NCBI GenBank assembly: GCA_902785605.1
Contig: CACZZL010000014.1
Location: 31,873 to 95,872 of the forward strand
Direction: 5' to 3'
Length of the DNA stretch: 64,000 nucleotides
Source of the DNA: an uncultured Bacteroidales bacterium
Lineage (GTDB): Bacteria > Bacteroidota > Bacteroidia > Bacteroidales > Paludibacteraceae
The notes beneath the pieces were generated by a model. The model made no database searches. It was not told the origin of the DNA and worked only from the letters and a program-made list of their open reading frames with translations. Shown here piece by piece: positions 786 through 52,755 of the stretch; positions within the stretch are counted from its first letter, which is position 1, and each line of letters begins with the position of its first letter. The position numbers and the translations under genes are program-made.

Positions 786-822
786 ACTTTAGCCAATAAC
801 CTTTAGCCTTTAGCCATTAGTT
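786..822 (+). repeat. Heptanucleotide array (TTTAGCC / ATAACCT units)
   Basis: About five units of period 7, C-rich on the plus strand, sit between the rpoD stop and its terminator. They would be transcribed in the rpoD 3' untranslated region. Confidence 0.7.
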
Positions 823-829
823 ATTGCAA

Positions 830-1690
830 TCATCCAAGGTAAGTCTGTAGTATGTGACTACGTTGACCGGAGTTCAGTTTCTTGATTGCTTTCTCTTTGA
901 TCTGACGCACACGTTCGCGGGTGAGATGCAGCTCATCGCCAATCTCTTCCAGCGTCTTTTCCGGTGTGCCGATACCAAAGAACTTACGCAAAATGTCCGC
1001 CTCACGTGGGGTGAGTGTGGCCAGCGCACGGCTGATCTCGGTAGAGAGCGACTCGTTGATAAGGCCACGGTCCGCATTCGGCGAATCTTCGTTGACCATC
1101 ACGTCGATCAGACTATTGTCCTCTCCTTCTACAAACGGCGCATCGACACTCACGTGACGACCGGACATCTTCAGCGTCTCTGCAATCTTGTCAACCGGCA
1201 TATCCAGCTCTTCCGCCAACTCCTCCGCACTCGGCTTGCGTTCGTGCTCCTGCTCGAAACGTTGATAAGCTTTGTTGATCTTGTTGAGCGAACCAACCTG
1301 GTTCAGCGGCAGACGTACAATACGGCTCTGCTCTGCTAATGCCTGAAGAATAGACTGACGAATCCACCATACTGCGTACGAGATAAACTTGAAACCACGT
1401 GTCTCATCGAATTTCTCTGCGGCCTTGATCAAACCTAAGTTACCTTCATTAATCAAATCCGGCAAACTCAATCCTTGATTCTGATACTGCTTGGCTACAG
1501 ATACTACAAAACGTAGGTTGCTTTTGGTCAGTTTCTCTAATGCAGCACGGTCTCCGTTTCGGATACGACCGGCCAGTTCCACTTCTTCCTCCACCGAAAT
1601 CAAATCCTCACGACCTATCTCCTGAAGATACTTGTCGAGAGAAGCAGACTCACGGTTGGTGATTGATTTTGTAATTTTTAATTGACGCAT
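830..1690 (-). CDS. rpoD: Primary sigma factor RpoD (sigma-70 family, Bacteroidetes short form)
   Basis: This is the housekeeping sigma subunit that directs RNA polymerase to TTTG/TAnnTTTG promoters. Its 286 residues are the usual length in Bacteroidetes, which lack the acidic region 1.1. Region 1.2 begins near residue 15 ([12 protein letters not shown]). Region 2 spans about 62-118, with the core-binding [16 protein letters not shown] and the promoter-melting [16 protein letters not shown]. Region 3 follows. Region 4.2 carries the helix-turn-helix [18 protein letters not shown] near residues 247-265. Directly before the ATG the message can fold a 6-bp hairpin (CTTAAC/GTTAAG, 1693-1708), and a 7-bp repeat array precedes that. 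I could not find a clean TAnnTTTG promoter between this gene and the upstream tRNA, so the two may be co-transcribed. Confidence 0.97.
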
Positions 1691-1707
1691 GTCTTAACTT
1701 TTGTTAA

Positions 1708-1740
1708 GAGTTTAGAGTTTAAAGTTTAGAGTTTAGAGAA
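1708..1740 (-). repeat. Heptanucleotide array (GAGTTTA units)
   Basis: Five near-identical units of period 7 lie in the rpoD leader. This is one of the few arrays whose C-rich strand is the minus strand (TAAACTC). Confidence 0.75.
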
Positions 1741-1786: not shown

Positions 1787-1845
1787 AACTTTCAACTTTC
1801 CACTAGAAGACTTCTTTCAACTTTCAACTTTCAACTCTCAACTAT
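1787..1845 (+). repeat. Heptanucleotide array (CTTTCAA / CTCTCAA units)
   Basis: Two blocks of CTTTCAA-type units (1787-1803 and 1811-1845) lie between rpoD and tRNA-Arg. The same unit recurs near 6.6 kb and 12.5 kb. Confidence 0.8.
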
Positions 1846-6602: not shown

Positions 6603-6659
6603 CTAAACTACTTTCAACTATAAGACTTCTCTCAACTCTCAACTTTCAACTCTCAACTT
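6594..6659 (+). repeat. Heptanucleotide array (CTTTCAA / CTCTCAA units)
   Basis: Units of period 7 fill the gap between the GH57 amylase stop and the porin start and run into the first porin codons. Orientation is C-rich on the plus strand although both genes are on the minus strand. Confidence 0.8.
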
Positions 6660-7918: not shown

Positions 7919-7953
7919 AATCTTAATTTTTAATTCTTAATTTTTAATTTTGA
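7918..7953. repeat. AT-rich heptanucleotide array (TTAATTT units)
   Basis: Five units of period 7 (TTAATTT with single changes) fill the 36-base gap between the GT4 and GH57 genes. Confidence 0.7.
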
Positions 7954-7954
7954 A

Positions 7955-9217
7955 TTACAACGTATGATTGATCACACCGTCATAGATTCTACGCACTTTC
8001 AGTCCTGCGTCAGACCACTTGATGTTGTTGACTTCCTCCATACCCAGCTCGTGCAGACTCTTGTACATCGCCGGGTACTTGACAATGGCGTAGATCGCAT
8101 CGGCCATGGCATCAATGTCCCAATAGTCGGTCTTAATAGCGTGTTGCAGAATCTCTGCACAACCGGATTGGTGACTGATGATTGACGGACAGCCGACTTG
8201 CATAGCCTCCAACGGACTGATACCGAACGGCTCACTCACGGACGGCATGATATACACGTCACTCATCGCCAGCATCTCCTGTACCTGCTTGCCGCGCATG
8301 AAGCCCGGGAAGTGGAACTTGTCGGCGATACCGCGTTTGGCTACGAGATCAATCATCTCCGCCATCTTGTCACCGCTACCGGCCATCACGAAACGAACAC
8401 CGTCCGTCTTGCTCAGCACGCGCGCTGCGGCTTCCACAAAGTACTCCGGTCCTTTCTGCATCGTGATACGGCCGAGGAACGTAACCAGCTTGTCCTTGCG
8501 CTCCGGCTTGGTGAACTCTTCCGGATGAGCCAAAGGCTCAACGGCGTTGTGCACCGTGCTCACTTTGCGCGGATCAATACCGTATTTCTCAATGACCGTG
8601 TTACGCGTCAAGTTACTTACACAGATGATGTGGTTCGCCTCCTCCATACCGCGTTTCTCAATAGCGAACACGGTCGGGTTCACATTACCACGGCTTCTGT
8701 CAAAGTCCGTTGCATGAACGTGAATAACGAGCGGCTTACCGCTGATCTGTTTTGCGAACACACCGGCCGGATAAGTCAACCAGTCGTGGCTGTGGATGAT
8801 ATCAAAATCCAGACTGTGTGCTAACACACTCGCTACAGCCTCGTAGTTACCGATCTCTTCAATCAGGTTATCCGGATAACGGCCCGAGAAACTGATGCAG
8901 CCCAGATCATCCGTCCCGATACGACGGTAGTCGTAATGAATACCGTTGCGGAAATGGAAATACTCTTCGGGGCTCATCTTGCCCTCCATACGCTGCTTGA
9001 CGTAGTCGTAACTGTTCTCTTTCCAAACAACCGGGATACTGTTGGCACCGATGATGCGCAGGAAAGACTGATCCTCGTCGCCCCATGGTTTCGGGATAAC
9101 GAACGTGATCTCCATGTCTTTCTGCTCGCTCATACCGCGCGTCAGACCGTAACTGGCTGTTCCTAAACCACCTAAGATATGGGGAGGAAACTCCCAACCG
9201 AACATTAACGCTTTCAT
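7955..9217 (-). CDS. GT4-family glycosyltransferase, glycogen-synthase-like
   Basis: This 420-residue cytoplasmic glycosyltransferase has a GT-B fold. The N-terminal nucleotide-sugar loop appears as FPPHILGGLGTASYGL, the second Rossmann half begins around VTFLGRITMQKGPEYFVEAA, and the retaining GT4 signature is EPFGISPLEAMQ near residue 330. The N-terminal KALMFGWEFPPHILGGLG resembles starch/glycogen synthases (the GGLG loop). In Bacteroides this gene sits between a GH57 amylase and a debranching enzyme, as here, so glucan chain elongation is the best guess; the donor (ADP- or UDP-glucose) cannot be read from sequence. Its start overlaps the debranching gene by 4 bases (ATGA). Confidence 0.88.
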   Translation of the reverse strand: MKALMFGWEFPPHILGGLGTASYGLTRGMSEQKDMEITFVIPKPWGDEDQSFLRIIGANSIPVVWKENSYDYVKQRMEGKMSPEEYFHFRNGIHYDYRRIGTDDLGCISFSGRYPDNLIEEIGNYEAVASVLAHSLDFDIIHSHDWLTYPAGVFAKQISGKPLVIHVHATDFDRSRGNVNPTVFAIEKRGMEEANHIICVSNLTRNTVIEKYGIDPRKVSTVHNAVEPLAHPEEFTKPERKDKLVTFLGRITMQKGPEYFVEAAARVLSKTDGVRFVMAGSGDKMAEMIDLVAKRGIADKFHFPGFMRGKQVQEMLAMSDVYIMPSVSEPFGISPLEAMQVGCPSIISHQSGCAEILQHAIKTDYWDIDAMADAIYAIVKYPAMYKSLHELGMEEVNNIKWSDAGLKVRRIYDGVINHTL

Positions 9218-11239: not shown

Positions 11240-11289
11240 AAAAATCCTAAAACCTAAATCCTAAATTTGAAATCCTAAATCCCAAATTA
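11240..11289 (+). repeat. Heptanucleotide array (AAATCCT units)
   Basis: AAATCCT/AAACCTA-type units of period 7 fill most of the gap between the manC stop and the start of the debranching enzyme. No TAnnTTTG promoter is evident in the gap. Confidence 0.75.
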
Positions 11290-12402
11290 CAATTCATTTA
11301 TGAATTGTTTAATCCGCTGCTCCTCCGCTTTCTTGCAGATGAGCAACGCACCGCTCTGCTCGGCAATGATCATATCATCCACCCCTTGTACAATCGCCAC
11401 CTTACCGGGCTCTAACACCACAATATTACCTTGCGCCTCATGGAAATGAGCGGTACTATGCAGACTCACGTTCTGCTGTTCATCCTTCTCGCTCAACTCA
11501 TACAGGCTGCCCCAGGTGCCCAGGTCACTCCAGCCGAAACTGGACGGCAACACATAGACATTGTCCGCTTTCTCCATAATACCGTAGTCAACGGATATAT
11601 TCGGGCATTTGGGAAAATTATGCTCGATGAAATCGCGCTCTTTCTCCGTTCCTATCAACCCCTCTCCCTGTGCAAAGATGTCCGCTATCTCCGGCATATA
11701 GCGCCGAATAGCCTCATCAATCGTCTTCAGACTCCACACGAAAATACCGCTGTTCCACAGATAGTCTCCGCTCGCCAGGTACTTCTTCGCTGTCTCTAAA
11801 TCCGGCTTCTCCTTGAACTCCTTAACCGAATAGATACCATCTCCTTTCGCCTTCAACCTTTCACCTTTCACCTCATCCAATTCGTTCGCGAATTGGATGT
11901 ACCCGTATCCGGTCTCGGGACGGGTAGGCTGCATGCCTAACGTACAGATAGCCTCGTTCTTGCCTACAAAATCAAACGCCTGCAATATCGTCTGACGGAA
12001 CTTCTCCTCCTCCAGAATCAAATGATCACTCGCCGCCACAACTATCTTTGCTTCCTGTAACCCGTAACCGGTAACCCGTAACCGCTCTTTTATCCAAGCA
12101 ACGGCATACGCGATACACGGAGCTGTATTACGCCGCGCCGGCTCGCACAGAATCTGACTCTCCTGCATGTCCGGAACCTGCTCCAAAATCAACTCCTTGT
12201 ATGCCACATTCGTTACAATCACCATGTTCTCAATTGGAACAATCGGACGAAAACGGTCCACCGTCATCTGCAACAAACTTCTACCCGTACCGAAGAAATC
12301 CAAGAACTGCTTCGGCTTACGCTCTGTGCTGAACGGCCAGAAACGGCTTCCAATGCCGCCGGCCATGATCACGCAATAATTGTTTTTATGATTTTCTGTC
12401 AT
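11287..12402 (-). CDS. manC: Mannose-1-phosphate guanylyltransferase
   Basis: This 371-residue enzyme makes GDP-mannose from mannose-1-phosphate and GTP for polysaccharides and glycans. The nucleotide-binding N-terminus is VIMAGGIGSRFWPFSTERKP, and later family signatures are EPARRNTAPCIAYA, ASDHLI, YLWNSGIFVW, SVDYGIMEKA and FGWSDLGTW. I start it at the ATG at 12402 because the promoter -7 element lies at 12425-12432, inside a longer possible reading frame. Two loops are abnormal: ERLRVTGYGLQEA, before the VVAASDHLI strand, and VKGERLKAKGDG, in a hairpin loop. Both are direct translations of 7-bp repeat arrays inserted in frame. Confidence 0.95.
   Translation of the reverse strand: MTENHKNNYCVIMAGGIGSRFWPFSTERKPKQFLDFFGTGRSLLQMTVDRFRPIVPIENMVIVTNVAYKELILEQVPDMQESQILCEPARRNTAPCIAYAVAWIKERLRVTGYGLQEAKIVVAASDHLILEEEKFRQTILQAFDFVGKNEAICTLGMQPTRPETGYGYIQFANELDEVKGERLKAKGDGIYSVKEFKEKPDLETAKKYLASGDYLWNSGIFVWSLKTIDEAIRRYMPEIADIFAQGEGLIGTEKERDFIEHNFPKCPNISVDYGIMEKADNVYVLPSSFGWSDLGTWGSLYELSEKDEQQNVSLHSTAHFHEAQGNIVVLEPGKVAIVQGVDDMIIAEQSGALLICKKAEEQRIKQFINEL
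11843..11880 (+). repeat. Heptad array inside manC (first)
   Basis: Units of period 7 (CTTTCGC, CTTCAAC, CTTTCAC) lie in coding sequence. They read on the minus strand as VKGERLKAKGDG, an extra hairpin loop relative to usual guanylyltransferases. Confidence 0.75.
12055..12086 (+). repeat. Heptad array inside manC (second)
   Basis: Units alternate TAACCCG and TAACCGG with period 7. On the minus strand they encode RLRVTGYGLQ, a loop between a helix and the VVAASDHLI strand. Confidence 0.8.
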
Positions 12403-12456: not shown

Positions 12457-12507
12457 CGCGCGCGAAAATATTTTTAAAAAAGTGACTTTTTGTTCAAAAA
12501 AAGCGTT

Positions 12508-12541
12508 TCTTTCAACTTTCAACTTTCAACTTTCAACTTTA
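12508..12541 (+). repeat. Heptanucleotide array (CTTTCAA units) over the gldD promoter region
   Basis: Four or five CTTTCAA units occupy the position where the -33 box of the gldD promoter should lie. Confidence 0.8.
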
Positions 12542-12573: not shown

Positions 12574-13179
12574 ATGGAGTTTTTGCAAAAAAATAGAATT
12601 TTAAATTTTAAATTTTTAATTTTTAATTTGGCGGTGTTGTTAACATGCGTTGCTTGCAACCATGTGTCAACGCCTCGCCCCTACGGCTACTACCGTATCA
12701 CGACGCCGGACACTGCATACCTGCCCTTCGATACACGTCATGCGAACTATCCCTACACTTTCGATCTGTCGCAAAACGCAGAAGTCAGACCGCGCACAGA
12801 TGTGACCGAACCCTATTGGATCAACATCTACTACCCCGCTCTGGATGCAACCATCCACTGCTCCTACAAAACCGTGAACCGTAACCTGCGGGAGCTGACC
12901 AATGATGCACTCGAGTTTGTGTACCGCAACGCATCCTTTGCCAATGCCATCCCGGAGAGAGAGTACTCCCATCCCGAAGCAGACGTCTATGGAGTACTGT
13001 TCGACTTGGAAGGCAACACCGCTTCCTCTTGTCAGTTCTTTGTCACGGATTCAACGCACCATTTCTTCCGCGCGTCCGTCTACTGTAACTGCCCGCCGAA
13101 CGCCGATTCGTTGGCACCCGTATACGACTATTTGCGCACAGATGTAATTCGCATGGTCGAGTCCTTTGAGTGGAGGTAA
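12574..13179 (+). CDS. gldD: Gliding-motility lipoprotein GldD
   Basis: This 201-residue protein matches GldD: a lipoprotein-type signal ending in LLTCVAC, then PRPYGYYRI, a central EPYWINIYYPALDATIHCSY and the C-terminal VIRMVESFEWR. In Flavobacteria GldD is needed for gliding and is linked to the type IX secretion/motility machinery. In non-gliding gut Bacteroidales its exact role is uncertain, although the secreted proteins further along fit a type IX secretion lifestyle. The hydrophobic signal (RILNFKFLIFNLAV) is encoded by AT-rich 7-bp units (12598-12629), so the repeat supplies part of the export signal. Confidence 0.88.
   Translation: MEFLQKNRILNFKFLIFNLAVLLTCVACNHVSTPRPYGYYRITTPDTAYLPFDTRHANYPYTFDLSQNAEVRPRTDVTEPYWINIYYPALDATIHCSYKTVNRNLRELTNDALEFVYRNASFANAIPEREYSHPEADVYGVLFDLEGNTASSCQFFVTDSTHHFFRASVYCNCPPNADSLAPVYDYLRTDVIRMVESFEWR
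12598..12629. repeat. AT-rich heptads encoding part of the GldD signal peptide
   Basis: Four units of period 7 (TTTTAAA, TTTTAAA, TTTTTAA, TTTTTAA) are translated as NFKFLIFNL inside the signal peptide. Confidence 0.6.
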
Positions 13180-13181
13180 AT

Positions 13182-13240
13182 CGTCAATTAAAATCAATCG
13201 TCAATCAATCGTAAATCGTAAATTTGTCAATCGTCAATAA
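13182..13240 (+). repeat. Heptanucleotide array (AATCGTC / AATCGTA units)
   Basis: The array fills the whole gldD to pcrB-tadA gap and runs into the first codons of the fusion gene, supplying its TTG start at 13224. The preceding in-frame stop is at 13212-13214, and no in-frame ATG lies between that stop and the TTG. Confidence 0.8.
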
Positions 13241-14423
13241 AAATAGAAAAGCTCTCGCTCTCCTTCTCGACCCCGAGAAAGCAGATCTCTCCCGCCTTTC
13301 CTTTACCGAAGAGGTGCACCCCGACTACGTTTTCGTCGGCGGTTCCACCGGTGGGGATACCACAGATTTTGTCCGTGCCCTCAAGAAAAAACTATCACCA
13401 ATCACCAATCACCAATCACCAATAGTTTTATTCCCCGGAAACGCGGAGCAGTTCACACCCGAGGCAGATGCGATCCTCTTTCTCTCCCTTCTCTCCGGTC
13501 GGAACCCCGAGTACCTGGTAGAGCAGCAGATACGAAGTGCTGAGGCAATCAAAAAATCGCAGATTCGCTCGATTCCAACGGCCTATATCCTCATAGACGG
13601 TGGGGTAGAGACATCCACCATGCGTGTGACCCATACTTTGCCGATTTCATCGGACAAAAAAGACGAGATAGTGGCTACTTGTGTAGCAGCTGAACTGATG
13701 GGTAAAGAGGCAATCTATCTGGAGGCTGGAAGTGGTGCAAAAGTGCCGGTTTCAACGGAAATAATCCAAGCCGTTCGTGCAGCTACAAAATGTACGCTCA
13801 TCGTTGGTGGCGGAATTCGTACACCCCAAGCCATGAACGCCGCCTACGAGGCCGGAGCAGACATCGTCGTCATCGGAAACCACTTCGAGTCCCATCCCGA
13901 GGAATTGGCACAATTCTGTCGAGAGGTCGATCGTCAATCTAATCAATTGGACAATAAATCGTTAAATCGTCAATCGTCAAATCGTCAATTAGACGATGAG
14001 CGCTTCATGCGTCTCGCCTTGCTCGAGGCCGAAAAAGCCCTTGACGCTAATGAGATACCCATCGGTTGCGTGATCGTTTCGCAAAACCAGATCATCGGCC
14101 GCGGTCATAACCTCACAGAGACCTTGTCCGATGTCACCGCGCATGCCGAGATGCAAGCAATAACAGCTGCAACCCAGACCGTAGGAGGCAAATACATTCC
14201 CGATGCCACGCTCTATGTCACCGTCGAACCCTGTCCGATGTGCGCAGGGGCGATCGGCTGGGCGCAGATAAGCCGAATCGTTTACGGCGCACCTGATCCC
14301 AAACGCGGCTACACGACCTACGCGCCTCGCGCCTTCCACCCCAAAGCAACCGTCACGGCAGGGGTGCTCGAAGCCGAGTGTCGCGAATTAATGCAGAACT
14401 TCTTTAAAAAGAAAAGAATATGA
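13224..14423 (+). CDS. Fusion of PcrB/geranylgeranylglyceryl-phosphate synthase with tRNA adenosine deaminase TadA
   Basis: This 399-residue frame contains two complete enzymes. Residues about 7-236 are a PcrB/GGGP-synthase TIM barrel (LLLDPEKADL, FVGGSTGGDT, VLFPGNAEQFTPEADAIL, SLLSGRNPEYLV, YLEAGSGAKVPV, VGGGIRTPQAM), which joins a polyprenyl diphosphate to glycerol-1-phosphate. Residues about 257-399 are a TadA deaminase (A34 to inosine in tRNA-Arg) with zinc/catalytic residues H307, E309, C337 and C340 (TAHAEMQA and EPCPMCAGA). The 20-residue linker is polar, rich in N, Q, R and S, and is the translation of an AATCGTC heptad array. A second array adds SPITNHQSPI in a PcrB loop. The start must be TTG at 13224. 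An internal ATG at 14006 could also release a separate TadA. The gene overlaps the next one by 4 bases. Confidence 0.85.
   Translation: MSIVNKNRKALALLLDPEKADLSRLSFTEEVHPDYVFVGGSTGGDTTDFVRALKKKLSPITNHQSPIVLFPGNAEQFTPEADAILFLSLLSGRNPEYLVEQQIRSAEAIKKSQIRSIPTAYILIDGGVETSTMRVTHTLPISSDKKDEIVATCVAAELMGKEAIYLEAGSGAKVPVSTEIIQAVRAATKCTLIVGGGIRTPQAMNAAYEAGADIVVIGNHFESHPEELAQFCREVDRQSNQLDNKSLNRQSSNRQLDDERFMRLALLEAEKALDANEIPIGCVIVSQNQIIGRGHNLTETLSDVTAHAEMQAITAATQTVGGKYIPDATLYVTVEPCPMCAGAIGWAQISRIVYGAPDPKRGYTTYAPRAFHPKATVTAGVLEAECRELMQNFFKKKRI
13394..13423 (+). repeat. Heptad array inside the PcrB domain (AATCACC x4)
   Basis: Four near-perfect units of period 7 encode the extra loop ITNHQSPI before the VLFPGNA strand. 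Confidence 0.85.
13929..13991 (+). repeat. Heptad array forming the PcrB-TadA linker
   Basis: AATCGTC-type units, partly degenerate, run between the two domains. They contain no in-frame stop and no ATG at the expected TadA start (that codon reads TTA). Confidence 0.8.
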
Positions 14424-16297
14424 AAAATGACAAAGACAAAGTGCTGAATACCGTTTTGCGCATGGGCGCATTCGTTGTGCTGGCCGTTGTGCTGGTGTTG
14501 CTTTTTCCGCGATACAACAACTCGTTCCGATATCACTACGAGGTAGGTAAGCCATGGGGATATGCTACCCTGACGGCGGATTTCGACTTCCCGATATACA
14601 AAACGGACGAGCAGATGGCCAAAGAGCAAGAGCAACTGCTCTCAACCTTCGCTCCTACCTTCAAATATATCCCGCGAGTGCAGCGTGAGGTCAAAGTGGT
14701 GTCGCTCGAAACAATGGAGTGGCTTCAAAAAGAAGGGTACTCACGCATCGCTATCAACCAGAACAAATACCCGCTGTCGGAAATCTATACCCCCATGACA
14801 GCGCGTAAGAAATTCGGATACGACTGCGCGCTCAACCTGACGCTGGATACAGCACGGACAGAGTCATTGCGCGATAAACTGCTGGCCACCCTCTCACCGA
14901 CCCAAGGCTTGGTGCAGAAAGGGGAGAAGATAGTAGAGCAGGGTGAGATTCTGTCCGAGCGGGACTATCAGCGTTTGCAGTCCTTGAGTCGCGCGTACAA
15001 GGATGAATCGCGCGGGAAGGCTGAACGCGTCCTGTCTATCGTCGGAGAATCGCTGCTCGTACTCCTCTTCCTCGGCCTTTTTGTGCTCTACTTGTACGTG
15101 TTCCGTCGCACCTACATGCAAAAAACATCGACGGTGCTCTTCTTCTGCCTGCAGATCTTCATCGTCATCGCATTGGCATGTATCATCCTGCATCTGGGCT
15201 GGTCGGTATACCTCATCCCGTTTGCATGGGTACCCATCCTCACACGCGTCTTCTTTGACTCGCGCACCGCGCTCTATCTCCATTTCACAACGGTTCTGAT
15301 CGCATCCGTGATCGTTCCGGCTCCGGTTGAGTTCTTCTTCATCCAGATCGTGGTCGGCATGGTTGCCGTCTCCTCGTTGTCCGATATGACACGCCGCGCA
15401 CAACTGGTACAAACAGCCTTATGGATCCTGCTTGCACAGACGCTGGCATACACCGCTATCACCTTCGCCCAGATGGGTTCGATCACGGCCGTCAACCCCT
15501 GGATGTACCTATACTTCGCTATCTGCGCCATCTTTACGGTCGGTTGTTACGGCCTGATCTACGCCTTCGAGAAAGTGTTCCGTTTCATCTCGTCCATTAC
15601 TCTGGTCGAACTGACGGATATCAACTCCGAACTGCTCCATACCTTGGCAGAGAAAGCGCCGGGCACTTTCCAACACTCCATGCAAGTCTCCAACTTGGCT
15701 GCGGAGGCAGCGAAAGCGATTGGTGCCAATGCCCTATTGGTCCGCACCGGTGCGCTCTATCATGATATCGGTAAGATAGTCGATCCGCTCTCCTACATAG
15801 AGAACCAGAACGGAGTGGAGAATATGCTCCTGAAAATGGACCCGCGGGATGCCGCACAAGTGATCATGGCACACGTCACCGAAGGAGAGAAACTGGCACG
15901 TAAGAACCATCTGCCCGAAGTGGTTGTTAACTTCATCACGACCCATCACGGCACATCCCTCGTGCGCTATTTCTATAACACCTACTGCAACGCGCATCCC
16001 GACGAACAAGTGGACGACAAACAGTTCCGCTACCCCGGTCCCAAACCTTCGACCAAAGAAGGCGCCATCCTCATGATGGCAGATGCGATCGAAGCCCGTT
16101 CACGTAGCCTCAACGAGTTCACCGAAGAAGCGATCTCCAAAGCGGTGAACCAGATGATCGATACGCAGATTGCAGATGGCCAGTTCTCGGAGACACCGCT
16201 GAGTTTCAAAGATGTAGAGGATATCCGCCGCGTCTTCACTTCGCGTCTCATCGCCATGAACCATCATCGTATCAGTTATCCGACGCTAAACAAATAA
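14420..16297 (+). CDS. Membrane HD-domain phosphodiesterase (PgpH / 7TMR-HDED type)
   Basis: This 625-residue protein matches the PgpH/YqfF group that hydrolyses cyclic di-AMP. It has one N-terminal membrane segment (AFVVLAVVLVLLF, near residue 15), an extracytoplasmic domain to about residue 190, then a bundle of about seven hydrophobic segments. The C-terminal HDIG phosphohydrolase domain carries TFQHSMQVSNLAAEAA, GALYHDIGKI, HVTEGEKLA, THHGTSLVRYF and MMADAIEARSR, which hold the metal-binding His/Asp residues. Substrate assignment comes from the family only. It starts by a 4-base overlap with the PcrB-TadA gene and is probably translationally coupled to it. Confidence 0.88.
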   Translation: MKNDKDKVLNTVLRMGAFVVLAVVLVLLFPRYNNSFRYHYEVGKPWGYATLTADFDFPIYKTDEQMAKEQEQLLSTFAPTFKYIPRVQREVKVVSLETMEWLQKEGYSRIAINQNKYPLSEIYTPMTARKKFGYDCALNLTLDTARTESLRDKLLATLSPTQGLVQKGEKIVEQGEILSERDYQRLQSLSRAYKDESRGKAERVLSIVGESLLVLLFLGLFVLYLYVFRRTYMQKTSTVLFFCLQIFIVIALACIILHLGWSVYLIPFAWVPILTRVFFDSRTALYLHFTTVLIASVIVPAPVEFFFIQIVVGMVAVSSLSDMTRRAQLVQTALWILLAQTLAYTAITFAQMGSITAVNPWMYLYFAICAIFTVGCYGLIYAFEKVFRFISSITLVELTDINSELLHTLAEKAPGTFQHSMQVSNLAAEAAKAIGANALLVRTGALYHDIGKIVDPLSYIENQNGVENMLLKMDPRDAAQVIMAHVTEGEKLARKNHLPEVVVNFITTHHGTSLVRYFYNTYCNAHPDEQVDDKQFRYPGPKPSTKEGAILMMADAIEARSRSLNEFTEEAISKAVNQMIDTQIADGQFSETPLSFKDVEDIRRVFTSRLIAMNHHRISYPTLNK

Positions 16298-16299
16298 AT

Positions 16300-16358
16300 C
16301 GTCAATTAATAACAATCGTCAATAAATCGTAAATCGTAAATTGGTAAATCGTAAATTA
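16300..16358 (+). repeat. Heptanucleotide array (AATCGTC / AATCGTA) at the dus start
   Basis: The array fills the 43-base gap after the HD-domain gene and continues through the first codons of dus, including its TTG start at 16341. Confidence 0.8.
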
Positions 16359-17396
16359 TATCTGGCTCCCATGGAGGATGTGACAGATCCCGCCTTCCGC
16401 ATGTTGTGCAAACGCTACGGCGCCGATCGTGTCTATACCGAGTTCGTCAACGCAGACGCACTCGTTCGGGATATCGCCTCCACAACACGCAAACTCACCA
16501 TCCATGATGAGGAGCGTCCGGTCGCAATCCAGATATACGGTCGTGAACCCGAATCAATGGCAGAGGCCGCACGCATCGTTGAGACGGCAAAGCCCGATTT
16601 CATCGACATAAATTTCGGCTGCCCGGTCAAAAAAGTGGCAGGGAAAGGAGCGGGAGCTGGCTTGCTCAAAGATGTTCCCAAAATGCTGGAGATCACCCGT
16701 GCTGTTGTCAACGCTGTTCACACACCCGTCACCGCCAAAACACGCCTCGGTTGGGATGAGTCCGATTTGATCCCAAGAATCAATCCTTTGGGATTGCCCG
16801 TAACCGGTAACCCCTCACCCGTAACCCCTGTTCCCTTCATCGTCGATCTCGCAGAGCGCCTGCAAGACTGCGGCATTCAGGAACTGGCTATCCACGGTCG
16901 TACCCGCTCTCAGATGTACCGCGGCGAGGCCGATTGGACACTCATCGGAGAAGTGAAAAACTGTCCCCGCATCCACATCCCCATCATCGGAAACGGCGAT
17001 GTCACAACACCCGAACGGGCACGCGAGTGCTTCGACAAGTACGGTGTCGATGCCATCATGATCGGTCGCGCAACCTTTGGCGCCCCCTGGATATTTTCTG
17101 AGATGAAAGCAGCCCTTGATCCTTCTTTCCCTCCCTTGGGGGGAGGGGCAGGGAGGGGTTTCTCCATGAGCGAGAAAGTAGCTGTTCTCAAAGAGCATGT
17201 CCTGGCCTCGATCGCTTGGTGTGGAAACGATGAGCGCAAAGGTATCGTTCATTCCCGTCGTCATTTTGCCGCATCACCCGTCTTCAAGGGCCTCGATAAC
17301 TTCAAACAGACCCGCATTGCCCTCCTCCGCGCCGAAACCGTCTCCGAGGTCTTCGCTATCATGGACGAGATCGTTGCCAAATGGGGCAATGAATAA
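16341..17396 (+). CDS. dusB: tRNA-dihydrouridine synthase
   Basis: This FMN-dependent enzyme reduces uridine to dihydrouridine in tRNA D-loops. Diagnostic motifs are LYLAPMEDVTDPAFR, FIDINFGCPVKKV with the catalytic cysteine, GAGAGLL, AIHGRTRSQMY, IIGNGDV and IMIGRATFGAPWIF. Length is 351 residues, somewhat more than usual because of two insertions. The first, LPVTGNPSPVTPVPF after GWDESD, is a translated heptad array. The second, DPSFPPLGGGAGRGFS, comes from a G-rich element. The start is TTG at 16341, inside a repeat array; no in-frame ATG exists nearby upstream. The subfamily (B versus others) is a best guess. Confidence 0.88.
   Translation: MVNRKLYLAPMEDVTDPAFRMLCKRYGADRVYTEFVNADALVRDIASTTRKLTIHDEERPVAIQIYGREPESMAEAARIVETAKPDFIDINFGCPVKKVAGKGAGAGLLKDVPKMLEITRAVVNAVHTPVTAKTRLGWDESDLIPRINPLGLPVTGNPSPVTPVPFIVDLAERLQDCGIQELAIHGRTRSQMYRGEADWTLIGEVKNCPRIHIPIIGNGDVTTPERARECFDKYGVDAIMIGRATFGAPWIFSEMKAALDPSFPPLGGGAGRGFSMSEKVAVLKEHVLASIAWCGNDERKGIVHSRRHFAASPVFKGLDNFKQTRIALLRAETVSEVFAIMDEIVAKWGNE
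16796..16831 (+). repeat. Heptad array inside dus (TAACCGG / TAACCCC units)
   Basis: Units of period 7 encode PVTGNPSPVTPVP, an insertion before the FIVDLAERLQD helix. Confidence 0.75.
17127..17164 (+). repeat. G-rich element inside dus
   Basis: A C-run followed by four G-runs (GGGGGG, GGGG, GGG, GGGG between 17139 and 17160) interrupts conserved dus sequence and encodes PPLGGGAGRG. It has potential for a hairpin or a four-G-run quadruplex. Confidence 0.6.
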
Positions 17397-18453: not shown

Positions 18454-18554
18454 GGTATTCTCGTTCTTCAACCTGTTTCCTTTTGCCCCCTCGTTAACGT
18501 TGTCCCTTCCTCCTTACAACGTTCCTTCTTTCGTTTTCGGTCCTATAGTACGAG

Positions 18555-18620
18555 ATTAGTAGAATATTAGTAGGATATTAGTAGGTGATTAGTAGGTGAT
18601 TAGTAGGTTATTAGTAGGTG
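18555..18620 (+). repeat. Six tandem 11-bp repeats (ATTAGTAGGTG)
   Basis: Six head-to-tail units: ATTAGTAGAAT, ATTAGTAGGAT, ATTAGTAGGTG (twice), ATTAGTAGGTT and ATTAGTAGGTG. The spacing is about one helical turn, so all copies face the same side of the DNA. They lie 90-155 bp upstream of the promoter at 18711. Confidence 0.9.
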
Positions 18621-24020: not shown

Positions 24021-24042
24021 TACACGCGCGTGTATGTAATAA

Positions 24043-36134: not shown

Positions 36135-36208
36135 TCCTTCGGGATACCGATATTCCGATATTCCGGGATGCCGAAAATTACCAATGACCAATCACAAATT
36201 ACAAATAC
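36134..36208 (+). repeat. Mixed 8-bp (CCGATATT) and 7-bp arrays before and into maf
   Basis: 36134-36166 has period 8; 36178-36208 has CAATCAC/CAAATTA units of period 7 that supply the first maf codons (TNHKLQI). Confidence 0.65.
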
Positions 36209-36783
36209 TGCTTGGTAGCGCTTCTCCCCGAAGGAGAGCGCTACTAGCAGGTCTCGACCTGCCTTTTACGGCGATTAACATCGACGCCGATGAGACCTAT
36301 CCTGCGGGTCTGAAGGCAGGAGACATTCCTTATTATATATCGCGCGCGAAAGCGCAAGCGTACGCGCCCCAACTCCAACCCGACCAGTTGCTCATCACAG
36401 CCGACACCATCGTCTGGCTGGATGGTCAGATGCTCGGCAAACCCCATGACGAAGCCGACGCAATCACCATGCTTCGACGCCTCAGCGGCAAGACCCATCA
36501 GGTCTACACCGCTGTCACGTTCGCCAATCTCCAATCTCCAATATCCAATCTCCAATTAGAGACGATAGTCGACAAAACTGACGTCACTTTCAAAGACCTC
36601 TTCGACGAAGAGATCCGTCATTACGTAACCCAATACCGCCCGCTGGACAAAGCCGGCGCCTACGGGGTGCAGGAATGGATAGGATACATCGCTTGTACTG
36701 CCATGAACGGCTCTTACTTCAACGTCATGGGTTTCCCCGTTCACCGAGTATATGAACAACTAAAAAATCGAGGCATCGTCTGA
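36184..36783 (+). CDS. maf: Maf-family nucleotide pyrophosphatase
   Basis: A 199-residue house-cleaning enzyme hydrolysing dTTP/UTP or modified nucleotides. Family motifs are LLGSASPRRRALLAGL at the start, ISRAKAQAY, LITADTIVWLDGQMLGKP with the catalytic Asp, AITMLRRLSGKTHQVYTAV and the late AGAYGVQEW. A loop after TAVTFA is replaced by NLQSPISNLQLE, the translation of a heptad array, and the N-terminal residues come from another array. The stop codon lies inside the terminator hairpin that follows. Confidence 0.93.
   Translation: MTNHKLQILLGSASPRRRALLAGLDLPFTAINIDADETYPAGLKAGDIPYYISRAKAQAYAPQLQPDQLLITADTIVWLDGQMLGKPHDEADAITMLRRLSGKTHQVYTAVTFANLQSPISNLQLETIVDKTDVTFKDLFDEEIRHYVTQYRPLDKAGAYGVQEWIGYIACTAMNGSYFNVMGFPVHRVYEQLKNRGIV
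36524..36556 (+). repeat. Heptad array inside maf (AATCTCC units)
   Basis: Four units AATCTCC, AATCTCC, AATATCC, AATCTCC encode NLQSPISNLQ, the same peptide as in the neighbouring topoisomerase tail. Confidence 0.9.
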
Positions 36784-36797
36784 TACCTCGATTTTTT
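36762..36797. terminator. Bidirectional terminator overlapping the maf stop
   Basis: Perfect 12-bp stem AAAAAATCGAGG (36762-36773) / CCTCGATTTTTT (36786-36797) between convergent maf and the prenyltransferase gene; T-runs on both strands. Confidence 0.9.
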
Positions 36798-36829
36798 CAT
36801 CTTTCATTTTTCATCTTTCATTCTTTCAT
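36797..36829 (+). repeat. Heptanucleotide array (ATCTTTC units)
   Basis: ATCTTTC/ATTTTTC units of period 7 follow the terminator up to the stop of the prenyltransferase gene. Confidence 0.65.
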
Positions 36830-37791
36830 CACGCGAGCATCCGCATAATAACAAAACTGTACAGCATCCCGATCAGCATCGTGAACTTGATCACTTGCTG
36901 GCAGGTCTTGTAGTCGCTCGGAATCTTCGCTGCCCACAGTAACCAAATGGCACTCAGCAGCGGAATAAGAATACCCAATACAATATACCGTGTGCTGAGG
37001 CTTCTCCAACTGATGTCGAACGGCAGCAGATGATACCACACATGCCCGATCAGCGCAATCGTGCCGACAATCAGCACGGTCACAAACACCTTCGTCCATG
37101 TCTCACCCCATACAACCGGCATCGAGTGGCACTCCAGTTCACGGTCACCCATCTGGTCCTGCATGTCCTTGATGATCTCGCGTATCCACGTCAGTAGGAA
37201 CGCAAACACCGCAAAACCGCCTAACCAGATATACAGGTCGTTTCCCAGCGTGGTGTAGGGCATAACAACAGCGTATCGGAGGTTCAGAATCGCCACATTA
37301 GCTATCGCAACCGTCAGCGGAACCAGGCCGGCTAACAGCGCAATCGTCAGGTTACCAATCATGAACAGCCGTTTGTAACTGCTGGAGTAGAACCACAGCA
37401 GACCCGGAACCATCACAAACAATATTCCCAGCGTCAGGCTGCGCAGCAACACCGCAACCGCGATTCCGCAAACGATGCCCGTACCGCTCAGTATCCAACT
37501 CAACCGCATCGCGGCCGGCTTACTGATCGATCTCGTTACGATCACCTCGTCCGGACGGTTGATGCGGTCGATCTTCACGTCGAAATAGTCATTCACGACG
37601 TACCCGCCGGCCGCAATCAGCGCCGTTGCGGCAATGATCAGCGCCAAGATAAACCAGGGTAACTGCTCGCCGAAGAGCGCTTGGTTCAATATCGGCGTCG
37701 CTACCCATTTCTCCATCACCCACACCAGCACAATGAGGAACAGCACATTGCTCCACCTCACCAGCTTCATTATGTCCTTGAACGTTTCCAA
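36829..37791 (-). CDS. UbiA-family prenyltransferase (digeranylgeranylglyceryl-phosphate synthase-like)
   Basis: A 320-residue inner-membrane enzyme with eight to nine hydrophobic helices and both Asp-rich UbiA motifs: GGYVVNDYFDVKIDRINRPD near residues 63-82, and IREIIKDMQDQMGD in the second half. UbiA enzymes transfer a polyprenyl chain from its diphosphate. In Bacteroidetes this branch is often annotated as geranylgeranylglycerol-phosphate geranylgeranyltransferase. Together with the PcrB domain at 13.2 kb it suggests an archaeal-type ether-lipid step, but quinone or haem substrates remain possible. It lies convergent to maf. Confidence 0.85.
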   Translation of the reverse strand: METFKDIMKLVRWSNVLFLIVLVWVMEKWVATPILNQALFGEQLPWFILALIIAATALIAAGGYVVNDYFDVKIDRINRPDEVIVTRSISKPAAMRLSWILSGTGIVCGIAVAVLLRSLTLGILFVMVPGLLWFYSSSYKRLFMIGNLTIALLAGLVPLTVAIANVAILNLRYAVVMPYTTLGNDLYIWLGGFAVFAFLLTWIREIIKDMQDQMGDRELECHSMPVVWGETWTKVFVTVLIVGTIALIGHVWYHLLPFDISWRSLSTRYIVLGILIPLLSAIWLLWAAKIPSDYKTCQQVIKFTMLIGMLYSFVIMRMLA

Positions 37792-37792
37792 A

Positions 37793-37846
37793 ATCTAAAA
37801 TCTTAAATCCTAAATTTGAAATTTGAAATCACAAATCACAAATATT
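37793..37846 (+). repeat. Heptanucleotide array (AAATCTT / AAATCCT / AAATCAC units)
   Basis: Period-7 units occupy the whole 62-base gap between the amylase stop and the prenyltransferase start. Confidence 0.75.
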
Positions 37847-39497: not shown

Positions 39498-39535
39498 TCT
39501 ATATTTGTGTGTTTTTCTAATGGTAAAATGTGTCA

Positions 39536-39616
39536 ATAATTAACAATCGTCAATCAATCGTGCCCCGTAGGGGCTAAGAATAATCTTAAAATCGTCAATC
39601 GTCCAATCGTCAATTA
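39536..39616 (+). repeat. Heptanucleotide array (AATCGTC units), interrupted
   Basis: Two blocks of AATCGTC-type units (39547-39560 and 39590-39614) fill the ackA to amylase gap and run to the ackA stop. Confidence 0.75.
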
Positions 39617-40810: not shown

Positions 40811-40876
40811 AAAAATAAATCGTCAATTACTAACAATCGTCAATCAATCGTAAATCGTCAATCGTCCAATCGTCAA
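40811..40876 (+). repeat. Heptanucleotide array (AATCGTC / AATCGTA units) between pta and ackA
   Basis: Period-7 units fill the intergenic gap almost completely, so the pta-ackA message would carry the repeat. Confidence 0.8.
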
Positions 40877-41875
40877 TTACTTAATGGCCTGGTTAGCCGT
40901 AATAACCACCATCTGCACGATATCCTGCACCTTGCAGCCGCGGCTCAGGTCATTCACCGGAGCAGCGATACCTTGCAAAATCGGTCCTACGGCATCAGCG
41001 CCGCTGAAGCGCTCAACCAGCTTGTAACCGATGTTACCTGCCTGCAGGTCCGGGAACACGAGCACGTTCGCCTTGCCGGCAACCGGACTACCCGGAGCTT
41101 TAGTCTTGGCTACGCTCTCGATCAGTGCGGCATCAGCCTGTAACTCACCGTCCAGTGCCAACTCCGGAGCCATCTCCTTCGCCAACTTGGTTGCCTCCGC
41201 TACCTTATCTACCAACTCGTGCTTAGCGCTGCCCTTCGTCGAGAAGCTCAACATCGCTACGCGCGGCTCGATACCGGCAATAGCACGGGCTGTCTCAGCC
41301 GTCGAGATAGCAATCTCCGCCAACTGCTTTGCATCGGGATTCGGGTTAACCGCGCAGTCTGCAAACAGCAGGAATCCGTTCTCGCCCAGGTGTTTCGCAG
41401 GCGTGAACATAAGGAACGCACCGCTCACGATCGAGCAACCCGGTTTGGTCTTCAATATCTGGAACGCCGGACGAATCGTGTCTGCCGTCGTACCGCGAGC
41501 ACCGGCTAACTCACCGTCTGCATCGCCGGCCTTGATCATCAAACAACCCAGATACAACGGGTCCTGCGCTTTCTTCGCAGCCTCTTCTTCCGTCATACCC
41601 TTTGCCTTACGCAGCTCAAACAGCAGCTTCGCATATTCCGGCATCTTCGGATCGTTGATCGGGTCCACGATCTTCGCCTCATGGATGTACTCGTATCCCT
41701 TCTCTTTGGCCATACCCATAATGGTCTCCGGGTTACCAATCAAAATAAGCTGCGCAATCTTATCTCTCAACAAGATGTTCGCAGCCTCTAACGTACGGGG
41801 TTCATCGCCTTCCGGCAAAACAATGCGCTGCGGATTCGCCTTCGCACGCGCAATCATTTGATTTAAAATGTCCAT
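40877..41875 (-). CDS. pta: Phosphate acetyltransferase
   Basis: A 332-residue short-form Pta that exchanges acetyl-CoA and phosphate to give acetyl phosphate. Diagnostic segments are IVLPEGDEPRTLEAA, AGDADGELAGARGTTADTIR, FADCAVNPNPDAKQLAEIA, MLSFSTKGSAKHELVDKV, LDGELQADAALIESVA and NVLVFPDLQAGNIGYKLVER. It lacks the regulatory N-terminal domain of enteric Pta, as is usual in Bacteroidetes. A promoter lies at 41948-41979, and the leader between promoter and ATG contains a TAACCGG heptad array. Confidence 0.97.
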   Translation of the reverse strand: MDILNQMIARAKANPQRIVLPEGDEPRTLEAANILLRDKIAQLILIGNPETIMGMAKEKGYEYIHEAKIVDPINDPKMPEYAKLLFELRKAKGMTEEEAAKKAQDPLYLGCLMIKAGDADGELAGARGTTADTIRPAFQILKTKPGCSIVSGAFLMFTPAKHLGENGFLLFADCAVNPNPDAKQLAEIAISTAETARAIAGIEPRVAMLSFSTKGSAKHELVDKVAEATKLAKEMAPELALDGELQADAALIESVAKTKAPGSPVAGKANVLVFPDLQAGNIGYKLVERFSGADAVGPILQGIAAPVNDLSRGCKVQDIVQMVVITANQAIK

Positions 41876-41902: not shown

Positions 41903-41937
41903 TCCCGTAACCGGTAACCCGTAACCGGTAACCCCTC
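41903..41937 (+). repeat. Heptanucleotide array (TAACCGG / TAACCCG) in the pta leader
   Basis: Four alternating units of period 7 lie between the pta promoter and its start codon. The unit matches the one inside manC and dus. Confidence 0.85.
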
Positions 41938-47879: not shown

Positions 47880-47936
47880 ATAACCCATAACCCATAACCC
47901 ATAACCCATAACCGCTTAACCCTTTAGCGCTTTCTT
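47880..47936 (+). repeat. Heptanucleotide array (TAACCCA units)
   Basis: Four perfect TAACCCA units and degenerate ones lie between the terminator and the stop of the small surface gene and enter its last codons. Confidence 0.85.
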
Positions 47937-51300: not shown

Positions 51301-52714
51301 CCTTACCTGCTGGGGCAGTAAAGGTACATGCCGGCAGATCATAGGTCGTATTATATGCTTTCACCACATTATCCATCGAACCTGAACCACCGTTTGCATC
51401 AAACGAAATGGTATAGTTGTCCGGTGTCCAAATAGCATATAAGTTAAGTGCCGCATTGGTAGAATAAATTGCACCTTTTGCATAATCTGTACCACCTGTG
51501 CCTGCCGCTAATGTATGCCATTTGCTCAGCGTATAATGATCGCGCGAGAACTTATCCGAACTAACGGTATAGTTCACTCCGTGATCCTTATACTCCACCT
51601 CACTTGTCGCTCCTCCATCATTTTTATAATACGTCACAGCATAGCGTTGAAGCGTAGTGAATTCTACGGCTGCTCCATAACCATATATCTTTCCGTTATA
51701 TGCAAATGGACGAGCATAATAGGTGGTATTTGGCTCAAAACTTGATGTCGCTGTCTTTGAGCCAAAAGCTGTGTTAAGATTTATATCTTCACTCCAATAT
51801 GCTCCGGCTACAGGAGCATTATCACCCGTACCTCCAACGACTACAGTACTACTGGTTCCTATTATAAAGCCATAACGAGTGATGGATGCATTTCCTTTGA
51901 GAGTAACAACACCTCCAGAGAAAGTGGCACCTGTAGAGGTTATATTTGTAACTTCAAACTCTTTCCCTGTTTCATTATTTGAAAGAGTAGGAGTGAGCGC
52001 ATTAACAGTAATTTTATAAAAATCTTCATCTGCACAATATCCTCCATTTGCTGCTACAGCAACATTAATATACGTCCAACCTGCCTTATGAAGAGTGACT
52101 ACGCCATCACTTGCAACACTCGCAATTGTAGGATCATCACTACTCCAGGTAATTGTACCACTTCCTGCAGAGAGCGTGTAGTCTTGGAATTTTGCAGCTG
52201 AAGTACCAAAGTCTTTCTCAATATCATCTTCAAAACTGATAGTACGAGCAGTACAAGACTTGTGAACATTAATATTTATGACGAAATCTTGCTGGATGTA
52301 ATTATATGAATTATCAGTATAACCAGTTGCAGTTAGTGTAACAGAATAGTCACCTTCTGCATCAATATCGTAATAAACTACTATTTTACCTGAAGATAGC
52401 GAATTTGTTGTATAATGACCAGTACCCACATCACTAGAGGTGGTACCAAAACCACAGTCGTATCCATCATGAGTACCTCCAGCCGGTATGTACAGTTGCA
52501 AACCATCATTCCCGTACGGATTTACCAAGTCGGTAGTTGTATAATCGAATACGAAGTACCCTTCTGCTGTAGTAGCATCAATGTTAATTGTTTTTGATGT
52601 AGGACTAAATGTAATAGTTGCCGTTCCCCACGCACTAACGCTCATTCCCAGCATCAGTACTACTGCGCAAATGTATGTCTTAATCGAATTGCTACTTATC
52701 ATATTTGTTTTCAT
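48353..52714 (-). CDS. Large secreted surface protein with InlB-type repeats and C-terminal sorting tail
   Basis: A 1453-residue exported protein. The signal peptide (SIKTYICAVVLMLGMSVSAWG) is followed by Ig-like beta domains (including TITWSSDDPTIASVASDG, a bacterial Ig2 pattern). InlB/Listeria-Bacteroides repeats lie at about 355-510 (YTISFDANGGSGSMDNVVKAY, ending in LYAIW or FYAKW). More beta-rich domains follow, then a tail ending KLYILREGVMYDATGKKVGE that looks like the type IX secretion tail. The linker before the tail (TVSGEGLEVSGARK) is a translated heptad array. It is the second gene of the operon, 43 bases after the giant protein. Adhesion or glycan binding is likely; no enzyme motif is visible. 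Confidence 0.8.
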   Translation of the reverse strand: MKTNMISSNSIKTYICAVVLMLGMSVSAWGTATITFSPTSKTINIDATTAEGYFVFDYTTTDLVNPYGNDGLQLYIPAGGTHDGYDCGFGTTSSDVGTGHYTTNSLSSGKIVVYYDIDAEGDYSVTLTATGYTDNSYNYIQQDFVININVHKSCTARTISFEDDIEKDFGTSAAKFQDYTLSAGSGTITWSSDDPTIASVASDGVVTLHKAGWTYINVAVAANGGYCADEDFYKITVNALTPTLSNNETGKEFEVTNITSTGATFSGGVVTLKGNASITRYGFIIGTSSTVVVGGTGDNAPVAGAYWSEDINLNTAFGSKTATSSFEPNTTYYARPFAYNGKIYGYGAAVEFTTLQRYAVTYYKNDGGATSEVEYKDHGVNYTVSSDKFSRDHYTLSKWHTLAAGTGGTDYAKGAIYSTNAALNLYAIWTPDNYTISFDANGGSGSMDNVVKAYNTTYDLPACTFTAPAGKVFKCWAEGSAGGTERAVGYTHTVTDNITFYAKWKDATYTNYTFACAELELDEPANGADNVISDVVYMTSTSGQKVRSLAKFHVTGTGLTANKEVKFTTGDDDLDAIFSFKDGNGNAISTNASGAVDADVYIFYQPTATSDGRDIITAVGGIRAYVERNADGGKPRSVKNTARTINGRHLPSQFIIAAKSGGVWYALPSDASVTGAQMGYTFTPDNATTPTKATVAPQTALYSIYAPRADGTNKSYVRLASTNDYKTLWSNSSTTYGIKDNALVTGTSSKGDQYEWRLENTGADSYKLWNNASYSGAGRYLGIKGTKWNVFNAAGDVVQDLKILPVDAVSAYIGLSATDWEETAFNFTVTSGSVPDPYDHAQIAYNGNQYDASISGTKLTINDADFTEAGGFTAAPGSQLIVEWCNNTNAVLAQGSVISPIIINTNTVNLSDYDAEALVGTDIFITNGAELTINENTTVHDVTVNSGATLFVNKTAGGDGVTMNLSSGKLALKGGWNSDYTDYDMPRVYINPLSSLTKTNTTVNFDISVDSRNYYPFAVPFRVKVKDVNYVNPTLAGAATYGTHYVIKEYDGAARAENGPDQNANWKVVPKTDPESGDDVYLEPGKGYIMTAVSIPAYGGGVIRFPMSFSNAWTTNGEQATVSDVTKNVLEVTHHEGAATAGGGANKRHEGWNMLGVPFMSCYTSGTDMYEGEGSADLMEGRMELSGDPADPYDWETGDVVYVSVPSHDFAEYIQTDITTAKLVPGWSFFVQVGKTGNLTFLTTKQREDSDMPIYAPKRTENNSPVVKTGIVLSDGEKSDKTTFLISDKYSSEYEIGADLEKMFGNAFTLSTYSITNGTNLAFNALSTYEAQQAIPVGVRIPADGQYTFSLNPRYADANIARLDLIDYEAGEVTNLMTDSYTFTMTQGENTARFALNVTMRQETPTDIETVSGEGLEVSGARKMIINDKLYILREGVMYDATGKKVGEVIRNK
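48455..48490 (+). repeat. Heptad array encoding the linker before the C-terminal tail
   Basis: GCTAACC/TCTAACC/CTTCACC units of period 7 read on the minus strand as TVSGEGLEVSGA. Confidence 0.75.
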
Positions 52715-52726
52715 AATTCTCTCCTT

Positions 52727-52755
52727 TCAATTTTACAGTTTTCAATTTTCAATTC
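52727..52755 (+). repeat. Heptad-like array (TTTCAAT units)
   Basis: TTTCAAT/TTTTCAA units fill the gap between the two large surface genes. Confidence 0.55.

Follow-up and report, generated by a model that had tools for sequence, protein, structure and literature searches.

The 64,000-nt window examined here (positions 31,873 to 95,872 of contig CACZZL010000014.1) is part of G000, the genome of an uncultured rumen member of the Paludibacteraceae (2.08 Mb, 28 contigs, 83.5 % complete), and carries short tandem arrays of 7-nt units whose word differs from locus to locus. These arrays are probably heptamer-built short interspersed elements that resemble repetitive extragenic palindromes (REPs) in their spread and have been reshaped by slippage. 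Discrete copies have sharp ends and unrelated flanks, congeners differ strongly in words and copy number, and slippage is seen directly as whole-unit length changes between close relatives. Arrays occur at the borders of genes, within a loop of one protein and, in a fusion protein, as its linker. A dispersed origin of most single-block arrays is suggested by word sharing and end phase rather than by long copies.

Excess of period-7 arrays

Tandem Repeats Finder (TRF), run on the window at a score of at least 30, returned 81 rows, 31 of them with period 7, at 28 places (27 inside 786-52755). The first-pass annotation, made from the sequence alone, had claimed more than 25 heptamer loci. Many of the rows were weak, and a stricter scored period search retained 17 period-7 arrays. 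Exact lag-7 runs of at least 10 numbered 14, compared with 0.07 expected from 30 dinucleotide shuffles. Lags 14, 15, 21, 22, 11 and 17 were also raised (14, 8, 5, 4, 5 and 3 runs respectively), and lags 4-6, 8-10, 12 and 13 gave 0-1 exact runs each.

The scored search was applied to 855 kb of G000 (41 %), comprising the window and 791 kb in 40 stretches, and found 131 period-7 arrays. For periods 8, 9, 11, 15, 12, 6, 10, 17, 13 and 5 the numbers were 14, 14, 14, 12, 10, 7, 3, 2, 1 and 0, and order-3 Markov sequence, used as the null, gave 0 period-7 arrays at the same score. The proposed enrichment of period 7 over both shuffled sequence and other periods was therefore present, as was the loose YAAYNNN character of the words, with YAA on the pyrimidine-rich strand in 78 of the 131 consensus words.

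TRF arrays of all periods covered 7.7 % of the DNA between open reading frames (ORFs) versus 0.7 % of ORF interiors, indicating an intergenic bias. As for the earlier observation that arrays fill gaps, 34 of 76 gaps of 25-50 bp contained or touched a tandem array, all periods of 35 or less being counted. The heptamer arrays are very unlikely to stem from misassembly, because they are short (median 31 nt in G000) and recur across many separate assemblies and in the single 5.08-Mb contig of G109. In 200 kb of that genome, from another family, there were 7 period-7 arrays versus 2 for period 8.

Dispersed elements with sharp ends

Near-copies with identical irregularities were located far apart. 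Longer forms of 56-62 nt, designated E1, E2 and E4, were present, together with head-to-head inverted pairs. In E1 (62 nt) a variable spacer of some 6 nt separates a left AATCGTCAAT from the right block, which is conserved. In the alignment of 27 full-length E1 copies from G000, G021, G043 and G046 the ends were sharp: mean identity was 0.83 over the last 44 nt of the element but 0.26-0.27 in the flanks, and the two bases 3' of the end were TA in 14 copies. E4 (AAATGACC/AAATGGT) had a common sharp 3' end in 20 copies from eight genomes, its left half being more variable. In six copies E2 (CAACTTT) had a left block, a short spacer and a right block of 30 nt; other copies consisted of the right block only. 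Element copies were 80-94 % alike, not identical.

Element searches, in which many matches covered the right half only, took in 41 genomes near G000. E1 was found in 18 (at least 29 matches in G000, at least 27 in G021 and 0 in 23 genomes) and E4 in 26 (at least 31 matches in G009, 2 in G000 and 0 in 15 genomes), with no more than 22 candidates scored in each rich genome. No stem-loop was found in the single unit, five single strands of E1, E2 and E4 folding at z 0.84 to -0.97. Chosen inverted pairs folded in seven of seven cases at z -3.06 to -4.74, two of these pairs being from G109.

Array form and word sharing

Array length in G000 peaked at 29-33 nt at five thresholds (for example 53 of 131 arrays). 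The common form is a block of about 31 nt, or 4.4 units, with a variable unit number of up to about 10. End phases were non-uniform (chi-square p 2.7e-7; 78 arrays, not all independent) and, for a given word, mostly constant: TAACC closes 10 of 14 TAACCCG arrays, and CTTTCAACT opens seven of eight CAACTTT arrays.

Words were likewise characteristic of a genome. The probability of a shared word was 0.041 for two G000 arrays and 0.0055 when one of the two came from elsewhere, with 46 or 53 word classes depending on how the consensus was derived. Pairing of arrays within each of the other sources gave 44 word-sharing pairs out of 358 versus 10.05 by permutation, the observed number being reached in 0 of 2000 permutations, and removal of the two most extreme loci left 23 of 327 pairs versus 6.4 (0 of 2000). 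At locus L003, six of the seven arrays over 22.6 kb had the CAATTCT word. Fixed ends and genome-specific words therefore point to more than slippage from local seeds alone.

Close array pairs were more frequent in G000 than expected (9 versus 3), with orientations -+ in four, -- in two, ++ in two and +- in one. A universal layout of short block, spacer and long block was considered and rejected; it is present in E1, E2 and loosely E4, and absent from most arrays. Orientation by replication strand was also rejected, as C-richness tracked local GC skew weakly (odds ratio 2.6, p 0.016) and most contigs other than that of the window were mixed. The window arrays were one-sided, 13 being C-rich and 1 G-rich among 17.

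Arrays of the window

The arrays and related elements of the window are as follows.

787..820, + strand: TTTAGCC array, 3' of a terminator-like hairpin
1703..1738, - strand: TTTAGAG array (TRF and scored search)
1788..1843, + strand: E2 element of CAACTTT words adjoining tRNA-Arg, a short spacer lying between its left block and its right block of 30 nt
6610..6658, + strand: E2 copy, 92 % to the E2 at 1795
7923..7956, + strand: TAATTTT array, occupying an entire 36-bp gap
11242..11287, + strand: AAATCCT array (TRF)
12057..12083, + strand: TAACCCG/TAACCGG array in the ManC-like nucleotidyltransferase ORF, aa 118-126
12507..12540, + strand: CAACTTT block directly 5' of a promoter-like TANNTTTG box
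12597..12629, + strand: AATTTTA array in the gldD N-terminus, aa 8-18
13177..13238, + strand: E1 copy, 62 nt, in the gap between gldD and the pcrB-deaminase ORF
13394..13423, + strand: AATCACC array in the PcrB domain, aa 57-66
13930..13991, + strand: E1 copy, 86 % over query 4-64, in ORF 13224-14423 (PcrB envelope ends at 13907, deaminase envelope starts at 13992)
16295..16356, + strand: E1 copy separating the HDIG ORF from dus, with the upstream stop codon formed by the first bases of the copy
16797..16829, + strand: CCCCTAA-type array in dus (weak TRF row)
18534..18632, + strand: element of 99 nt made of 11-bp repeats, also dispersed but of a different kind, whose second copy (92 %) lies at G000:C8:5722-5820
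36030..36060, + strand: AATCTCC array towards the C-terminus of ParC, aa 842-851
36176..36206, + strand: AATNACC array, including the ATG of maf as called
36524..36556, + strand: AATCTCC array in Maf (aa 114-124), which the model places between two strands
36795..36830, + strand: CATCTTT array in the gap between maf and the next gene
37787..37843, + strand: run of AAATCTT, AAATTTG and AAATCAC words (TRF)
39532..39616, + strand: E1 copy in two pieces (39532-39561 and 39589-39616) separated by a GCCCCGTAGGGGC palindrome
40816..40877, + strand: E1 copy, query of the genus search, in the gap between the 39614-40804 gene and the pta-like gene
41904..41934, + strand: TAACCGG array upstream of the pta-like gene
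47880..47922, + strand: TAACCCA array, 3' of a terminator-like hairpin
52725..52754, + strand: TTTCAAT array in a 43-bp gap

Two other kinds of repeat were observed in the window. Promoter-like segments TTTGCATATATGCAAA...TANNTTTGC and their reverse complements (families D2, D3, D8 and D13) recur at 12424, 18712, 30353, 33277, 42016, 46177, 47710, 61135, 61977, 62901 and 63806; we take these to match the Bacteroidota -33/-7 promoter. Adjacent large genes at 20359-27557 have the common repeats D1, D5 and D10 (63-90 % identity) and are likely paralogues by local duplication.

Arrays inside genes

Of the G000 arrays, 56 of 131 were inside ORFs of at least 150 aa. The window genes with inner arrays and a family assignment were ParC, Maf, PcrB-deaminase, the ManC-like nucleotidyltransferase, GldD (N-terminus) and Dus (weak TRF row); further window arrays lie in ORFs without an assigned family. 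The claim that at least eight conserved genes are affected thus falls short within the window, where six are assigned, and is exceeded genome-wide. A Pfam search of 20 array-bearing ORFs gave a family match in 19, the array lying within the domain envelope in 11 (in one from the first residue only). The domains concerned were the PriA DEAD domain, a PrmC-like methyltransferase, ThiF, pyridine nucleotide-disulphide oxidoreductase, MiaB/RimO-type UPF0004, class I tRNA synthetase, the RecF/SMC N-terminal domain, U32-associated DUF3656, Asp/Glu racemase, chorismate synthase (two arrays) and a carboxypeptidase-regulatory-like domain.

The Maf insert varied in length and sequence among 34 aligned proteins. 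In the Maf model (mean pLDDT 89.5), residues 114-124 make up the turn that connects strands 104-116 and 123-136, together with the adjoining strand ends. The window ORF 13224-14423 consists of PcrB (aa 13-228) and a deaminase (aa 257-398), and the E1 copy at 13930-13991 fills the join. The two parts gave one uninterrupted match in 20 of 61 genomes and two separate side-by-side matches in at least 20 others, and the linker of the fused proteins varies between species. The sole apparent start codon (TTG) of this ORF as called sits in the TTTGTC region of the E1 copy at 13177..13238. E4 can also provide an ATG at gene starts, as observed in L002 (gap D), L168 and L174, where N-termini such as MVNDKMVNKK and MVNDQMVNSK are read straight from the element.

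Turnover among relatives

Relatives were compared at 80 loci around parC, the nearest named being uncultured Bacteroidales or Paludibacteraceae assemblies, many from rumen. Gap and start positions in these comparisons are approximate, being set by tblastn limits, and the ParC tree left 15 of 35 inner branches open. At the junction 3' of the stop of the 39614-40804 gene, E1 was present in L079 and the window, E4 in L028, L012, L010 and L017, CAATTCT arrays in L003 and L014, and a short palindrome in L007 and L072, with no clear element in L002, L004, L005 and L018. On the ParC tree L028 and L079 group as sisters (100/100), and their aligned DNA is 91.9 % identical, yet they differ in which of the three word families occupies this orthologous junction. 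Likewise, the maf start is a stop/ATG overlap in L079 and has a heptamer array at the same spot in L028. Whole-unit differences of 21 bp (three units) between L019 and L021 and 14 bp (two units) between L028 and L079 bear out the slippage suggested in the first-pass annotation.

In L003, L010, L012 and L072 an open frame (FSIINSQFSIILG) runs from the parC stop to Maf ILG(S) without ATG, GTG or TTG, and an unusual maf start codon would therefore be needed. A heptamer array seems to have taken the place of the usual maf start in these four.

Other repeat types were observed at comparable sites. The divergent promoter upstream of the pta-like gene has about 4-5 11-bp units (GTGGGTGATTA-like) in L003, L007, L012, L014, L017, L024, L027, L028 and L072; the 11-bp element of the window lies elsewhere (18534-18632). 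Short dispersed elements of palindromic type (such as CCGCCAAGATTGGCGG and CTTACAG...CGGTC) occupy the same kinds of site, namely gaps of L007, L012, L027, L046 and L072 and linkers of L158, L166, L169 and L170. Period 8 replaces period 7 in L075, with eight exact runs, and in the maf gap of L006, with CGATACCT/CGATTTCT-like units.

Breadth was estimated with the pattern YAAYYYN x3, a word-grammar search with no tandem test, whose counts serve for breadth alone; the reversed control also picks up period-7 arrays. Of the 41 near relatives, 36 had matches, their number ranging between 188 (G000) and 1 (G008, G011 and G013). The pattern also matched in 78 of 118 genomes sampled across the phylum, with scattered high counts (110 in G101, 102 in G087). 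G040, from another family of the order, had 471 matches, many of them the phrase CAATTCGTAATTTATAATTC, which recurs on many contigs, often near their ends, and is likely a second dispersed family.

Origin of the arrays

If the arrays are dispersed heptamer elements, a trans-acting activity, either recombination or single-stranded DNA insertion, would copy them to new sites, as in the spread of REPs and bacterial interspersed mosaic elements (BIMEs). Slippage in 7-nt steps would afterwards resize and homogenise them, and selection would purge those that disrupt reading frames. The elements are not REPs by definition, because the single unit has no stem-loop, but spread of the REP kind is the model that comes nearest. 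The initial interpretation was right on slippage and repeat type and missed the dispersal as discrete fixed-end elements with genome-specific words.

Several points weigh against dispersal. No mobilising enzyme was found among the candidates tested. A Y1 transposase (GTAG-type REP-associated tyrosine transposase, RAYT) was found in seven of 12 genomes picked for their richness in elements, and at E 0.001 there was none in the incomplete assemblies of G000, G002 (90 % complete), G015, G021 and G050 (97 %). Visual inspection of the aligned copies and flanks, a set without strain-level filled and empty pairs with both junctions, showed no target duplication, and this is the main gap of the dispersal reading. 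A left block lay upstream of 6 and downstream of 9 of the 131 arrays, and most arrays are therefore not E1- or E2-like. An inverted partner was present at 9 of 40 fetched E-element loci, head to head in all nine, a share that is biased because several E1 loci were fetched for an already listed opposite-strand partner. Shared descent inflates the phase and word-dialect statistics. In 200 kb of the single contig of G179, from outside the order, there was no clear period-7 excess (3 arrays versus 1-3 for other periods).

Reverse transcriptase (PF00078) was not found in 20 of 26 genomes, among them G000 at 83.5 % completeness, and the retro-element activity raised in the first-pass annotation is not supported. 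It was found in the other six, among them the element-rich G015 and G018, in which RVT_1 may have a role. MutS was present in 25 of the 26 genomes, and mismatch-repair loss as a cause is not supported. Y1 transposase, reverse transcriptase and MutS were all rejected as drivers, as none tracks element richness. Neither a GTAG nor a CGTC end tag was found in E2 or E4, and in E1 words CGTC is internal rather than an end tag.

Pure replication slippage, in which every array would have grown in place from a local seed with 7 nt as the favoured step, is unlikely as the whole explanation. It is consistent with the unit-step indels in close pairs and the variable unit numbers, and the near-universal MutS need not oppose it, as 7-nt loops may escape MutS. 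It does not account for genome-specific words, dispersed copies with identical irregularities, sharp ends in unrelated flanks, or a length peak in place of a monotone fall.

Homology-driven copying, by template switching or gene conversion between arrays, would spread words without a dedicated enzyme. Different words at one junction across genomes are what word replacement would yield, and imperfect identity between copies also fits. However, arrays occur where a relative has none to pair with, as at the maf start of L028 versus L079, and full E1 copies have nothing in common with their flanks, making this route quite unlikely; microhomology-led insertion may contribute.

A more speculative idea, which we consider doubtful, is mobile DNA that would inherit its layout (a period of 7 nt, blocks of about 31 nt, fixed ends and head-to-head pairs) while its word is free to change, the machine recognising periodicity rather than sequence or using a replaceable template. 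Each lineage would then have its own dialect, and the same layout might underlie the heptamers of Bacteroidota, cyanobacteria, Xanthomonas and Beggiatoaceae.

A further rival is a selected cellular function, whether as G-quadruplexes, post-transcriptional binding sites or three-frame stops at gene ends. The preference for about four units is shared with Xanthomonas and Nostoc (PMC4692102). A stop occurs in the array word on one or both strands in 111 of 131 arrays versus 76 % for shuffled words, of 67 arrays near a stop, 30 start 1-10 nt ahead of where the stop codon ends, and in gap C the elements lie directly against the stop codon. The number of arrays placed no more than 3 nt from a stop was nevertheless at chance level (19 versus 18.2 by random placement in those gaps), and we do not claim target choice because random placement in equally small gaps performs equally over the whole set. 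A functional role is very improbable, as words without G-tracts show the same length preference (TAATTTT, CAACTTT and CATCTTT are among the many that have none of the four tracts of at least three G expected of a G-quadruplex), array orientation is unrelated to transcription direction (odds ratio 1.07, p 1.0), the sense bias of stop words at gene ends is not significant (15 to 7, p 0.13) and arrays are nearly missing from congeners; a transcription-aligned role and three-frame stop cassettes were rejected accordingly. The Rfam scan of the window found only two tRNAs and no RNA family over the arrays.

Comparison with known systems

The dispersal of heptamer elements would join heptamer simple repeats with REP-like elements, subjects mostly kept separate, and provides a testable system in which congeners range from none to about 30 copies of one element. 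Short repeat DNA as a fusion-protein linker, start-codon site or extra loop in conserved enzymes also suggests a route to new protein sequence.

Judged by titles and the beginnings of abstracts, searches of open-access papers on heptamer, tandem or interspersed repeats in Bacteroidetes, Bacteroidales or rumen brought up no description of the system. We take Paludibacter propionicigenes to belong to the same family as the source genome. Two sets of TAACTGA repeats are described in that species (PMC4679880), so that heptamers near this lineage are not wholly undescribed.

Heptamer repeats are regarded as common, with slippage and polymerase contact as the proposed cause (Mrazek 2007, as cited in PMC4679880 and PMC4692102). 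The view of many-word tandem heptamers in gaps and conserved genes as akin to the short tandemly repeated repetitive (STRR) sequences of cyanobacteria stands: STRRs, Xanthomonas GGGAATC and Nostoc GGGGAYT are similar in their tandem 7-nt units, many loci, mostly intergenic position and preference for about four units, and in that the same gap has altered length and sequence in a related species (PMC4692102). Unlike these, dozens of words occur here in one genome, mostly without G-tracts, and word sets are genome-specific, with the longer E1, E2 and E4 dispersing as units. The four-unit preference in Xanthomonas and Nostoc has been explained by G-quadruplexes (PMC4692102); this cannot be general, because the preference holds here for words without G-tracts.

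The TAACTGA repeats of Beggiatoaceae, some Cyanobacteria and five Bacteroidetes are similar in their short arrays near gene starts and YAAYNNN-type word. They differ in having one word whose single-base variants are rarely repeated (PMC4679880), compared with many words, intragenic copies and no orientation bias here. Prokaryotic satellites include some short-unit families, heptamer-derived ones among them, that are scattered in one genome and species-specific. That survey covered units of 10-200 nt with at least four repeats and called transposed non-coding satellites rare in prokaryotes (PMC6749651).

Rickettsia palindromic elements are similar as short in-frame repeats in conserved genes (PMC3733652), their units being palindromes rather than tandem heptamers. 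REPs and BIMEs are likewise short, dispersed, uneven among related genomes and found in head-to-head pairs and clusters, some intragenic (PMC3733652); the present elements differ from them in heptamer iteration, a single unit without a stem-loop and the lack of a consistent Y1 transposase partner.

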